Part shown: piece by piece, positions 13,100-18,802 of the stretch
How the letters are laid out: every line of letters starts with the position of its first letter
How positions within the stretch are numbered: position 1 is the first letter of the stretch
Assembly (NCBI RefSeq): GCF_030268965.1
Contig: NZ_BSSE01000033.1
Span: 1-64,000 of the forward strand
Direction: 5' to 3'
Length of the DNA stretch: 64,000 nucleotides
DNA from: Microtetraspora sp. NBRC 16547
GTDB taxonomy: Bacteria > Actinomycetota > Actinomycetes > Streptosporangiales > Streptosporangiaceae
The notes under the pieces: model-generated
Told to the model about the DNA's origin: nothing
Database searches by the model: none
The model's input: only the letters and a program-made list of their open reading frames with translations
Position numbers and translations under genes: made by a program

Positions 13100-15388
13100 T
13101 CATCGCAGAGGCGGGACGGCGTCCTTCGCGCGCTGAAGGGCGAGTTCCGGCCACCAGGCGCCGCCTTGGGGGGTGACGATCCCGTAGACGGGGTCCGTGG
13201 ATCCGGTCGTGCCGCGGGTGCACTGGTCGTCCGACATACCGACAGGCCGGAGCCACAGTAATGCGTCGGCGAGTCCACTGCCGGTCCGGGTGGTCGGTCG
13301 GACACCGGCGCCGCGTCCGGGAGGATTGCACCAGATCTGCGGGTCCCTGTACTTGCCCGACGGCGGGTTCCAGTCGCCCTTGCCGTTCCTGCTCGTGTCG
13401 ATCACGAAGTGGGGCAGTCCTGCGGTGCTGTCGGGGATGGCGTCGATCTCCTCGTCAGGGCAGTTCCGCTTGAGTCCGGAGGACATGATCTTGACGCACT
13501 TGGCGAGTCGGGTGCCGTAGGCGATCAGCCGATCGGTCGGCTGGTAGCCCGCCGCGTTGAGAAAGAAGCCGTCGGCCTTCCCGACTCCTGCCTCGATCAG
13601 CCGTGCCGCGCTGACGTCGAGGGACGGCCAGCCGTCCATGCTGCCATCGAGATAGACGGCGGTGTGCGGCAGCGCGCCCAGGCGCTCGACGGCCGAAGCG
13701 AGTGCGTCGATCCTGGCCCGCTGGTCCTTCTCGTCGCCGAGGGCGCAGTCCTCGGAGCTTGGGAGCTCGGCGAGGCTGTCGGGTTCCAGCACGAACACCG
13801 CCGTACGGTCGCCGACCGCCCGCGCGATCGCGTCGATCCAGGCGAGGTACTCCTCGGAATTCGCCGCGCCGTTCGCGTTGCACGCGCGCAAGGGGATGTT
13901 GTCCGTGACGAAGACCGGCACCGCACCCTGCTGCGTCGCAGCGTCCAGCGTCGCGCTCGTGGCGCGGGCGGCCTCAGAGGCGGTCATCTCCCCCAGCCAC
14001 GCGGCCTGGGGAATCTGGGCCAGTGTCCGCATCAGCGCCGCGTCCCCGGCTCGCCCCGACGCTTCCCAGGTGGACGCCTGACGGGTCGCGTCACTGCTGG
14101 GGCTCACGTAGAACCGTACGGCCGGACCGTGCAGCGGATTGTCATCGGGGCCGGTGTCTCCCGAGGTCTTCCCGGTGGAGCCGGGGGTTCCACCCGCTGA
14201 TGCGGCGGACGGCTCCGACGGCGAAGTGGAGGACGCCTGTCGGTGACTTCCCTCCGATGCCGTCTGGACGGCGATGACGACCCCGGCCGTGGCGACCGCG
14301 GCGGCAGCGGTGGCGACTCCCGCGAAGAGGCGGGTCCGGCGGCTTCGGGGTGCGATGCCCGGCGAGCTCACGCGGGTCAGGGCCATGCCGCCGGCCACGT
14401 CACCTCCGGCGCCCCCGGCGCCTTCGGGGGCCAGGGCCTCTTCTTCTGGGACGCCGCCGTGCGCCCTCCCGGCCGTGGGGAGGGTCAGAGCGCCCGGCCT
14501 CGCCGTACCCGACGGCGTCATGCCCGGCTGCGCCGCATCTGCCCGCGGCGCGTCTGGTATTTCACCGATCGGAGTGCGGCCGGTGAGCACGTCGAGGAGC
14601 TGCTGCGCCGTGGGACGCTGGGCGGGATCCTTCGCCAGGGCCCATGCGACGATCGCCCGCAGCCCGGGTTCGAGCTGCGAAATATCGGGATCGTCATGAA
14701 GCACGCGATAGAAGATGTTGGAGATGGATTCCCCACCGAACGGCGCCTGGCCTGATGCGGCATACGTCACCAGAGCACCCCAGGAGAAGATGTCCGACGC
14801 CGAGGTCAGGCGCTCGCCGGTCACCTGCTCAGGCGACATGAAGGACGGCGTCCCCGCGATGATGTTGCTGACATGGGCGGCGTTCTCGGTGACCTGGGCG
14901 ATGCCGAAGTCGATGACCTTGGGGCCGACAGGTGACAGCAGCACGTTCGCCGGCTTGAGATCCCGGTGGACCACCCCCGCGCTGTGGATCGCCTGCAGCG
15001 CGACGGCGACGTTCACCGCGACCGCCTCCAGGTTCGACCCGGAGAGCGGCCCCTGGGTTCGCACAGCCTCCTGCAGCGTGGGGCCGGGGACGTACTCCGT
15101 TGCCAGGTAGGCGACGTCGCCGTCCACATCGGCACCGAGTACCGCTGCGGTGCAGAAGCGGGCGACGCGCTGTGCGGCGGCCACCTCGCGTTCGAAGCGG
15201 CGCCGGAAATCCGGATCGGCCGCCCACTGCGGGTGGATCACCTTGACCGCGACCTGGCGGCCCTCCTGGTCCCGGCCGAGGAACACGGTGCCCATGCCGC
15301 CCTGACCGAGTCTGCCGAGGATGCGAAACGGCCCAACCTGTCCAGGGTCCCCGTCCCGCGGGCTGCGGCCCTCCGCACCGCTCGTCAT
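13100..15388 (-). CDS. Transmembrane Ser/Thr kinase fused to a GH6 cellulase-like ectodomain
   Basis: The protein has 762 residues. The Hanks-type kinase domain spans ~18-272: G-loop LGQGGMGTVFLG, Lys49 (VAVKVI), HRDLKPAN with Asp143, DFG at 160-162, and SPEQ as the activation-loop end. A Pro/Ala-rich juxtamembrane region, one membrane helix (~354-374) and a Ser/Thr-rich linker follow. Residues ~424-760 form a GH6 domain: FYVSPSSDATRQASTW, VFVLEPDSLA with Asp537 (general acid), YLDGSMDGWPS, WCNPPGRGAG and the Trp-rich end GGAWWPELALQ. In the first GH6 signature (V-x-Y-x-x-P-x-R-D-C) the Tyr is Asp496 and the catalytic-site Asp is Ala502 (RAC), so hydrolysis may be lost. I infer a cellulose or glucan sensor that signals by phosphorylation. 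Confidence 0.9.
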   Translation of the reverse strand: MTSGAEGRSPRDGDPGQVGPFRILGRLGQGGMGTVFLGRDQEGRQVAVKVIHPQWAADPDFRRRFEREVAAAQRVARFCTAAVLGADVDGDVAYLATEYVPGPTLQEAVRTQGPLSGSNLEAVAVNVAVALQAIHSAGVVHRDLKPANVLLSPVGPKVIDFGIAQVTENAAHVSNIIAGTPSFMSPEQVTGERLTSASDIFSWGALVTYAASGQAPFGGESISNIFYRVLHDDPDISQLEPGLRAIVAWALAKDPAQRPTAQQLLDVLTGRTPIGEIPDAPRADAAQPGMTPSGTARPGALTLPTAGRAHGGVPEEEALAPEGAGGAGGDVAGGMALTRVSSPGIAPRSRRTRLFAGVATAAAAVATAGVVIAVQTASEGSHRQASSTSPSEPSAASAGGTPGSTGKTSGDTGPDDNPLHGPAVRFYVSPSSDATRQASTWEASGRAGDAALMRTLAQIPQAAWLGEMTASEAARATSATLDAATQQGAVPVFVTDNIPLRACNANGAANSEEYLAWIDAIARAVGDRTAVFVLEPDSLAELPSSEDCALGDEKDQRARIDALASAVERLGALPHTAVYLDGSMDGWPSLDVSAARLIEAGVGKADGFFLNAAGYQPTDRLIAYGTRLAKCVKIMSSGLKRNCPDEEIDAIPDSTAGLPHFVIDTSRNGKGDWNPPSGKYRDPQIWCNPPGRGAGVRPTTRTGSGLADALLWLRPVGMSDDQCTRGTTGSTDPVYGIVTPQGGAWWPELALQRAKDAVPPLR

Positions 15389-16612: not shown

Positions 16613-17794
16613 TCACTGGTTCCCTGGACGGGTGAAACCGACTCGGGGGGTCGAATAGTTGGCGTAGTTCTCGATGCGGACCACTGAGCGCGAGTTCGGC
16701 GCATGGATCATCGTGTGCTTCTCGGGGTCGAGCACGATTCCCACGTGATCGGGACTGCCGTCCCCGTTGTTGTCGAAGAAGATGAGGTCCCCCGCCTGCT
16801 CTGTGCCGTCGGGGATGCGAGGGCCCCGGAACCACTGGTCGGCGGCGACGCGCGGGATGCTGATCCCGGCCGCCTCGTACGCGCGCAGCGTCAGCCCGGA
16901 GCAGTCGAAGGAGTTCGGCCCGGTCGCGCCCCAGACGTAAGGATCGCCGAGCTGCTTGAGCGCGTAGTCGACGACGGCCCCGGCGCGCGGGTTGTTCGCC
17001 AGGCTGTGGGCGTTCGGCGGAACCCTGACGTCCTGCGACCGGTAGGTGACTCCCCCCGATCCGTACCCATGGGCACCCGTGGCCTGTGCGCCGGAACCGG
17101 AGCGAGAAGCAGGTGCGGCGCCCGAACCGGCGCCGGAGTCCGCACCAGGAGCCGCGCCGGTGCCGTCATAGCCCGCCAGCACGGTCCCCCCGTGCTGGAA
17201 CGCGGGGTCGGGGATCCAGCGCATCGCAGGGTTGTTGCCCGGGACGAAGTCCTGGTCGCCGGGGGCGGGGATGGACGAGAAGAAGGCGAAGTCGCCGAGA
17301 CGCTTGTTGATCTCGCCGGTCGCGTTCTTTACGGCCTCGACGGCCCGCTGTTTCGGTCCCGCGGCCGCCGCCACTCCCTTCTCCACCTGGGATCTGATGT
17401 GCGTCATCGAGATCGTGCTGCTGCTGGTGTTCCGCCGCTGCTCGTCCAGCCAGGCGCGTTTCTCGTTGTAGATCGTCTGGACCTCGCCCTTGGCGGTGCT
17501 CAGCGCCGTTTCCGCGGTTTGGAGGAGGCCGGCGCAGCCCTTCACGGCGCCGCTCATATCGGCGGCGGCCTTGGGATACCTCGCCATGTACGCGGCGAAG
17601 GCGTCGGCGGCCTCGCCGTTCCACGCGTCGTTCACCGAGTTCACCGCGCGCGTGAGGGCACCGGTGTGCGTGGTGATGTCGCCGGCGACTTTTCGCAGGT
17701 GGGCCAGGAGCGTGGTTATCCCCGACTCGTCAGCCGACAGTTCGTCGATGATGCGCTGGATGGGGTGGAGATAGGTGTCCCACATGTCCGTCAC
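16613..17794 (-). CDS. WXG100-type helical domain plus NlpC/P60 peptidoglycan hydrolase
   Basis: The GTG at 17794 overlaps the stop of the upstream gene (GTGA); an in-frame ATG lies at 17785. The protein has ~393 residues. Residues ~10-110 are helical and WXG100-like (LTRAVNSVNDAWNGEAADAFAAY). A Gly/Ala/Ser-rich linker (~215-255) leads to an NlpC/P60 domain with catalytic Cys in FDCSGLTLRAYEAAG, His in SPDHVGIV and the third polar residue in MIHAPNS. It has no Sec signal, so export by a type VII system is likely. It probably cuts stem peptides during wall growth. Confidence 0.88.
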   Translation of the reverse strand: MTDMWDTYLHPIQRIIDELSADESGITTLLAHLRKVAGDITTHTGALTRAVNSVNDAWNGEAADAFAAYMARYPKAAADMSGAVKGCAGLLQTAETALSTAKGEVQTIYNEKRAWLDEQRRNTSSSTISMTHIRSQVEKGVAAAAGPKQRAVEAVKNATGEINKRLGDFAFFSSIPAPGDQDFVPGNNPAMRWIPDPAFQHGGTVLAGYDGTGAAPGADSGAGSGAAPASRSGSGAQATGAHGYGSGGVTYRSQDVRVPPNAHSLANNPRAGAVVDYALKQLGDPYVWGATGPNSFDCSGLTLRAYEAAGISIPRVAADQWFRGPRIPDGTEQAGDLIFFDNNGDGSPDHVGIVLDPEKHTMIHAPNSRSVVRIENYANYSTPRVGFTRPGNQ

Positions 17795-18093
17795 GCCCCC
17801 GCCTCCCGCGGCTTCGGCGGGTCCGCATTGCGGAGGTTCGTGGCGACCTGGTACAGGGAAGTCTCGACCTTGGTCAGGTTCTGCTCGACGTACCGGATCT
17901 CCGAGACGATCTTCTCCTGGAGCTTGCCGATCGCGTCGGCGAGAGGGCCGGACGTACCCTCGATTTTCCCGAAGCAGTCGCGGGCGACGCTCACGGATCC
18001 CTCGTCGGCGTCGGCCTTGAACTGGTTGCCGATGCCCTTGGCCTTGCCCGCGCACTCCTCCAGCGCCTCGAAGTAGACCTCGAACCCCGCCAT
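17791..18093 (-). CDS. WXG100/EspC-like small helical protein (100 aa)
   Basis: The ATG at 18093 has GGCGGAG upstream. The protein is all-helical (FEVYFEALEECAGKAKGIGNQF, then LADAIGKLQEKIVSEIRYVE), the size and pattern of ESX-type secreted partners. It is translationally coupled to the NlpC/P60 gene, whose N-terminus is also WXG100-like, so the two probably form the helical-hairpin heterodimer needed for type VII export. Confidence 0.75.
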   Translation of the reverse strand: MAGFEVYFEALEECAGKAKGIGNQFKADADEGSVSVARDCFGKIEGTSGPLADAIGKLQEKIVSEIRYVEQNLTKVETSLYQVATNLRNADPPKPREAGA

Positions 18094-18247
18094 GAAAGCT
18101 CCGCCTCAAGCGCTCCACTGACATCAGCCGTGTCGGAAATTTTACCATTTCAGTGATCAAGCCGGAGATCCTCCCACGTCCCACGGCCCGGCCGTATTCA
18201 CGAACGGCCACAGAGGCCGGGTCCGGCGAGGTCGGTAATCTCCGTGC

Positions 18248-18802
18248 ATGAAGATCCGACAAGGCATGACAAATGACATCGAAACGGTCGCGGCGCTGCA
18301 CACCATGAGCTGGCGGACCGCCTACGCCGGGCTCATGCCGGACAGCTATCTCAACGGGCCGCTGCTGGACGAGCGCGCGAACCTGTGGCGTGGCCGCCTG
18401 ACCGCCGAACCGCGACCGGGCGGCGACACCGCCTCGTGCCTGCTGATCGCCGAGGACGGCGATGCCGTCAGCGGATTCGTCTACCTCTTCCTCCAGGACG
18501 ACGGCCGGATCCTGTTGGACAATCTCCACGTCAGCCCGGAACTGAAGCGTTCGGGCATCGGACGCCGTCTCATGCACCGCGCCTTCGGCTGGGCGTCCGC
18601 GAACCACCCCGGCCGGGACATCTACCTGGAGGTGCTCCGGGACAACGACTCGGCGCGCGCCTTCTACCTGCGCATGGGCGGCCGGCTGACCAGGGAGTTC
18701 GTGGAACGCTTTCCCGCGGGGTTCGACGTCGACGTTGTGGAGTACACCTGGGATCCGGCCGCTGTGAGCAGCGTCCTCGCTCCCGATCCGGTCACCCCGT
18801 AG
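18248..18802 (+). CDS. GNAT-family N-acetyltransferase
   Basis: The protein has 184 residues: MKIRQGMTNDIETVAALHTM, HTMSWRTAYAGLMPDSYL, then the acetyl-CoA loop LKRSGIGRRLMHRAFG (Q/R-x-x-G-x-G/A type) and LEVLRDNDSARAFYLRMGGR. This is the usual GNAT order. The substrate is unknown. It is monocistronic and divergent from the WXG100 pair. Confidence 0.85.
   Translation: MKIRQGMTNDIETVAALHTMSWRTAYAGLMPDSYLNGPLLDERANLWRGRLTAEPRPGGDTASCLLIAEDGDAVSGFVYLFLQDDGRILLDNLHVSPELKRSGIGRRLMHRAFGWASANHPGRDIYLEVLRDNDSARAFYLRMGGRLTREFVERFPAGFDVDVVEYTWDPAAVSSVLAPDPVTP

Follow-up and report, generated by a model that had tools for sequence, protein, structure and literature searches.

A receptor-like Ser/Thr kinase family of the Streptosporangiaceae with a GH6 pseudo-cellulase as ectodomain

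A 64,000-nucleotide stretch of the genome of the soil actinobacterium Microtetraspora sp. NBRC 16547 (positions 1 to 64,000 of contig NZ_BSSE01000033.1, hereafter the window) encodes a protein in which a Ser/Thr kinase is joined, through a predicted membrane helix, to a GH6-fold domain. Our results give good support to the view that it is a pseudo-cellulase receptor kinase, namely, a receptor made from a dead cellulase. Judging from its sequence, the ectodomain has lost catalytic residues and retained both the fold and the residues that would grip the sugar, so that it probably serves as a receptor for glucan of plant or bacterial origin. We consider it reasonably probable that, as a whole, the protein is a receptor Ser/Thr kinase whose dead GH6 ectodomain would bind a beta-1,4-glucan and which would signal by phosphorylation.

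The initial annotation had read in this region a single frame containing a complete Hanks kinase, one membrane helix and a GH6 domain, a layout with which Pfam and hydropathy analyses agreed (Table 1). The kinase motifs were intact (GQGGMG at 28, Lys49 in VAVK, HRDLKPAN at 141–148 and DFG at 160–162), as in RD kinases, and the best match of the kinase domain among solved structures was M. tuberculosis PknB (E 3e-41). The Pfam Glyco_hydro_6 profile matched residues 446–727 (E 3.4e-51) along positions 11–301 of its 305, and the protein scored 175 bits against the GH6 profile for a cut-off of 27. The motif RSRRTR precedes the helix (residues 354–374) on its N-terminal side, which fits a kinase placed inside and a GH6 domain placed outside.

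Table 1. Features of the pseudo-cellulase kinase in the window. Residue equivalences follow the numbering of T. fusca Cel6A (TfCel6A) and were verified against the printed alignment; conservation is given for 46 kinase-fused and 16 kinase-less ectodomains.
Feature	Position in window	Strand	Basis or conservation
Receptor-like Ser/Thr kinase with GH6-fold ectodomain	13100..15388	-	762 aa, stop included; single frame in 46 family members
Cytoplasmic Hanks-type kinase domain, residues 23-266	14591..15322	-	Pfam Pkinase E 7e-43 and motifs
Predicted single transmembrane helix, residues 354-374; Arg-rich cytoplasmic side	14267..14329	-	Hydropathy
Ser/Thr/Gly/Pro-rich extracellular linker, residues 375-416	14141..14266	-	Sequence, low pLDDT
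GH6-fold pseudo-cellulase ectodomain, residues 417-762	13103..14140	-	AF2 pLDDT 95; 1up0 Z 39.4; six family-conserved cysteines
Asp496, replaces Tyr73	13901..13903	-	Tyr kept in 5/46 fused, 15/16 kinase-less
Ala502, replaces Asp79 (RDC Asp)	13883..13885	-	Asp kept in 30/46 fused, 16/16 kinase-less
Asp537, general-acid position Asp117 (EPD)	13778..13780	-	Among 46 fused, kept only in the window protein
Asp581, Asp156, invariant	13646..13648	-	46/46 fused, 16/16 kinase-less
Met584, replaces His159	13637..13639	-	His in 1/46 fused, 16/16 kinase-less
Trp587, cleft tryptophan Trp162, kept	13628..13630	-	Trp in 44/46 fused, Tyr in 2/46
Trp686, cleft tryptophan Trp231, kept	13331..13333	-	46/46 fused
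Arg714, replaces Lys259	13247..13249	-	Lys in 0/46 fused, 16/16 kinase-less
Met718, replaces Glu263	13235..13237	-	Glu in 4/46 fused, 14/16 kinase-less
Asp720, Asp265, kept in the window protein	13229..13231	-	Asp in 9/46 fused, 16/16 kinase-less

The structure predicted for the ectodomain alone (AF2, pLDDT 95) matched M. tuberculosis Cel6 (1up0) with a Z-score of 39.4 and an rmsd of 1.8 over 288 residues, and all the structure matches listed for it were GH6 proteins or scaffolds derived from a GH6 protein. The fold comparison with GH6 structures proposed in the initial annotation came out in favor of the fold. The full-length AF2 model had a pTM of 0.49 and pLDDT values <50 for residues 281–412, with the membrane helix unmodelled and a domain arrangement that is not interpretable, so that the helix is a prediction from hydropathy.

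Alignment with TfCel6A confirmed the active-site changes first read from the sequence, namely, the Tyr turned into Asp496, the RDC Asp into Ala502, and the Glu into Met718. The two residues described as remaining, Asp537 of the EPD motif and an Asp around position 720, corresponded to Asp117 and Asp265, and the alignment offered no shifted alternative for the missing Tyr and Asp. It also revealed changes absent from the initial annotation: Lys259 replaced by Arg714, His159 by Met584, and a shortened Ser84-Ser85 active-site loop. Trp41 and Arg237 (Arg692) are also retained. Compared with the residue set expected of a GH6 domain working as an enzyme, the window protein keeps the acid and has lost Asp79, Tyr73, and Lys259. 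In TfCel6A, replacing the base/pKa residue Asp79 by alanine, asparagine or glutamate decreases activity by 2–3 orders of magnitude (PMC6091422).

Among 343 genomes of Streptosporangiaceae, the GTDB family to which the window belongs, 88 had a strong match to the ectodomain. We counted 70 of these 88 genomes as carrying kinase fusions, leaving out the genera g38 and g67 and the genome G177, where the loci read were kinase-less. The search for other kinase-GH6 fusions, also proposed in the initial annotation, provided 46 distinct fused proteins, which we read individually and which all came from GTDB Streptosporangiaceae; a non-exhaustive sampling of the class (395 genomes) gave eight matches outside the family, none of them with a kinase. 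The membrane helix, with an Arg-rich inner side, the six ectodomain cysteines, and the HRD and DFG motifs were present in all the 44 fused proteins scanned. When 65 sequences were placed in a tree, all 46 ectodomains fused to a kinase fell into one clade (SH-aLRT 100, quick method) apart from 16 kinase-less relatives, and the fused state needs a single change on this tree.

The window kinase grouped with a Planotetraspora copy and not with those of three congeners (G061, G097, and G119), all of which carry GH48 and CBM2 genes, both missing from the window genome; transfer or differential loss may possibly account for this placement and these absences. Pairs of pseudo-GH6 kinase genes, arranged in tandem or within ~1.6 kb of each other, occur at two places (L003 with L084, and L085 with L086). 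The active-site remnants differ between the paired genes, suggesting several ligands.

The loss of catalytic residues in the fused proteins was targeted. They retain only 1–3 of eight active-site positions, versus 7–8 in the 16 kinase-less relatives, having lost Lys259 in all 46 cases, the general acid and His159 in 45 each, Glu263 in 42, Tyr73 in 41, Asp265 in 37, and Asp79 in 16; the general acid and Asp79 occur together in none of the 46. The fused set had a mean retention of 26% at the eight active-site columns versus 83% at the remaining 63 of the 71 columns conserved in GH6 (permutation p 5e-5). Arg237 was retained in 45 of the 46 proteins and Trp41 in 28, being lost in the other 18. The ectodomain dN/dS was about 0.28–0.44 in six pairs (by the simple Nei-Gojobori method, rough at high G+C). 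Chance or pseudogene decay can be ruled out, given the single clade, the targeted loss, and the constraint on both halves of the protein. By sequence comparison, the signature of the family is the loss of the general acid (45/46) together with that of Lys259 (46/46). The initial annotation had instead stressed the change from RDC to RAC, which we discarded as a family signature since Asp79 persists in 30 of the 46 proteins. Its broader proposal of a cellulase turned into a receptor stands as far as the conversion of an enzyme into a binding domain is concerned, with targeted loss and with the fold and cleft kept. Fewest-changes counting placed a single loss of the general acid at the base of the clade and its return in the window protein, where this residue is probably a reversion. 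Codon 537 is GAC in the window and AAC (Asn) in the Planotetraspora relative, and the window codon may reflect a sequencing error at that base.

The tryptophans retained in the fused ectodomains presumably line the glucan subsites seen in GH6 structures, and binding of a glycan appears likely. Glucan is a plausible ligand considering the cleft tryptophans, the cellulase clusters neighboring the gene in two genera, and the analogy with RsgI6 of C. thermocellum, whose GH10 sensor domain has very low activity yet retains the binding of its sugars (PMC4711584). We propose that a secreted GH6 endoglucanase domain would have been fused once to a membrane kinase in the Streptosporangiaceae, and that it would then have lost catalysis while retaining its disulphide-held fold and its tryptophan-lined cleft. 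The outside domain would bind beta-1,4-linked glucan, either as a chain or as an oligosaccharide; the binding of several receptors to one chain, or a change induced by the ligand, might join the cytoplasmic kinases and allow their trans-autophosphorylation, and the activated kinase would phosphorylate cytoplasmic targets. In lineages where the kinase gene lies beside GH48/GH9 genes the signal would probably concern cellulose use, and the ligand may differ in the window organism. Cellulose would be the leading candidate for the putative ligand. More tentatively, these kinases might sense beta-1,4-glucan through the dead cellulase and, in some lineages, possibly control the adjacent GH48/GH9 genes by Ser/Thr phosphorylation.

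The gene neighborhoods contributed to this discussion, even if some of their agreement is due to common descent. Five genomes, from two genera, have a GH48 gene beside the kinase gene, and GH9 comes after GH48 in the four loci read (L099–L102). In these four genomes, representing both genera, a GH48-CBM2 gene and a GH9 gene stand just downstream of the kinase gene, in the same orientation, and the region before the kinase gene holds a second kinase gene and a LacI-type regulator; in the fifth genome (G088), GH48 likewise adjoins the kinase gene by its coordinates. This arrangement favors cellulose or cello-oligosaccharides as the ligand there. The second kinase, a membrane Ser/Thr kinase of 486–520 aa with a short ectodomain, lies beside the LacI-type regulator, so that two kinases border one cellulase locus. 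Other lineages have other neighbors: a gene for a secreted NodB-type polysaccharide deacetylase follows the kinase gene on the same strand in six Microbispora-type relatives, and an acetyltransferase gene lies within ~50 bases before it in Nonomuraea-like and Microtetraspora-type genomes. AfsR-like regulators occur near the kinase gene in three loci; BTAD/NB-ARC regulators of this kind flank it at L071 (8197-11067 and 3352-5919) and L117 (3381-5948), and might possibly be phosphorylation targets of the kinase. The window kinase gene has dinB 131 bases upstream and, downstream on the opposite strand, a two-component pair. Two genes upstream, a single frame (16616-18607, minus strand) combines WXG100 and NlpC/P60 domains. 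Since the neighbors differ by lineage, a single operon partner can be discarded.

At the scale of the family, GH48 was present in 59 of the 70 kinase genomes versus 141 of the 273 others (p 3e-7 by genome), and in 9 of the 12 genera with the kinase versus 28 of the 56 without it (p 0.2). The association is, therefore, confounded by descent, and a family-wide link between the kinase and cellulolysis is not upheld by genus. We looked for GH48, CBM2, and any other GH6 in the window genome, which has full estimated completeness, and found none of them. Simple cellulase induction does not fit this organism, where a wall or self-made glycan becomes a serious rival. The ectodomain might sense, in the manner of PASTA kinases, the cell's own envelope (peptidoglycan, a chitin-like polymer or a self-made beta-glucan) rather than environmental cellulose, a possibility that we hold as somewhat doubtful for the family. 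It would explain that the kinase gene is under constraint in a genome devoid of those three cellulolytic markers, and it agrees with the secreted deacetylase of the Microbispora-type relatives. The Streptomyces GH6 enzyme CslZ hydrolyses chitin and peptidoglycan in addition to cellulose (PMC9040799), and PknB, a PASTA kinase of Streptomyces, influences how the cellulose synthase CslA is phosphorylated (PMC13432765), both of which also point to the envelope. However, the GH48/GH9 neighbors in two genera speak for cellulose, as does the higher frequency of GH48 in kinase-carrying genomes, although only when counted by genome. These genomes also yielded no CslA-GlxA marker, in a search that was insensitive: PF09118 gave 0 matches in 14 genomes and none in any control either, and PF07250 gave weak scores even in likely Streptomyces.

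The presence of Asp537, Asp581, and Asp720 in the window protein makes slow hydrolysis still conceivable, as general acid and Asp265 are both kept, and the base mutant D175A of TrCel6A keeps 2–3% activity (PMC6091422); the ectodomain would then be a slow membrane-tethered hydrolase, regulated by the kinase or simply co-located with it. Nevertheless, the general acid is absent in 45 of the 46 family members and never accompanies Asp79, Lys259 is lost in all of them, and the general-acid mutation D120A abolishes the activity of CslZ (PMC9040799), which makes this alternative very improbable. It is also improbable, to a lesser degree, that the GH6 fold has become a protein-protein or structural domain devoid of sugar ligand: the -1 subsite has been extensively remodelled and 18 of the 46 proteins lack Trp41, but the cleft residues Trp162 and Trp231, as well as Arg237, are nearly invariant.

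The pseudo-cellulase receptor kinase shares with GH6 endoglucanases (M. tuberculosis Cel6 1up0, T. fusca Cel6A 1tml, and Streptomyces CslZ) the fold, the disulphide cysteines, the cleft tryptophans, and Asp156. It differs from them by its tethering to a kinase and by the alterations at positions 73, 79, 159, 259, and 263, to which all fused members other than the window protein add the loss of the general acid. C. thermocellum RsgI6 is likewise a transmembrane signalling protein, whose outside glycoside hydrolase fold reportedly binds sugar and has very low activity (PMC4711584), but it is a GH10 protein of Bacillota with an anti-sigma/proteolysis output, not a GH6 protein of Actinomycetota with a Ser/Thr kinase output; the N-terminal half of the window protein is the kinase, and we found no N-terminal RsgI anti-sigma domain in it. 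PASTA kinases (PknB, StkP) also combine a Hanks kinase, a single membrane helix, and an extracellular sensor, and PknB has the closest solved kinase domain; the window protein has a 346-residue GH6 fold instead of PASTA repeats. It scored 206 bits against the PASTA kinase model NF033483 (cut-off 450), through its kinase part only and with no Pfam PASTA match, and 229.9 bits against the AfsK model NF053615 (cut-off 1300), also through the kinase part only. M. tuberculosis PknD shares the kinase, the membrane helix, and a globular ectodomain, whose beta-propeller fold is unrelated.

Varied ectodomains have been described on receptor kinases, as have dead hydrolase domains on signalling proteins. 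We did not find their combination in a GH6 pseudo-enzyme kinase in the literature searched: kinase-GH6 fusions were undescribed in the open-access articles covered, including a kinase classification and a pseudokinase review, an absence that is not proof of novelty. To our knowledge, most bacterial Ser/Thr receptor kinases have no known ligand. In this family, the ectodomain descends from enzymes whose substrate is known, which provides a short list of candidate ligands. The family represents a clear case of change from enzyme to receptor, with living active relatives available for comparison, and it would add kinase signalling to the known bacterial ways of sensing insoluble polysaccharide.
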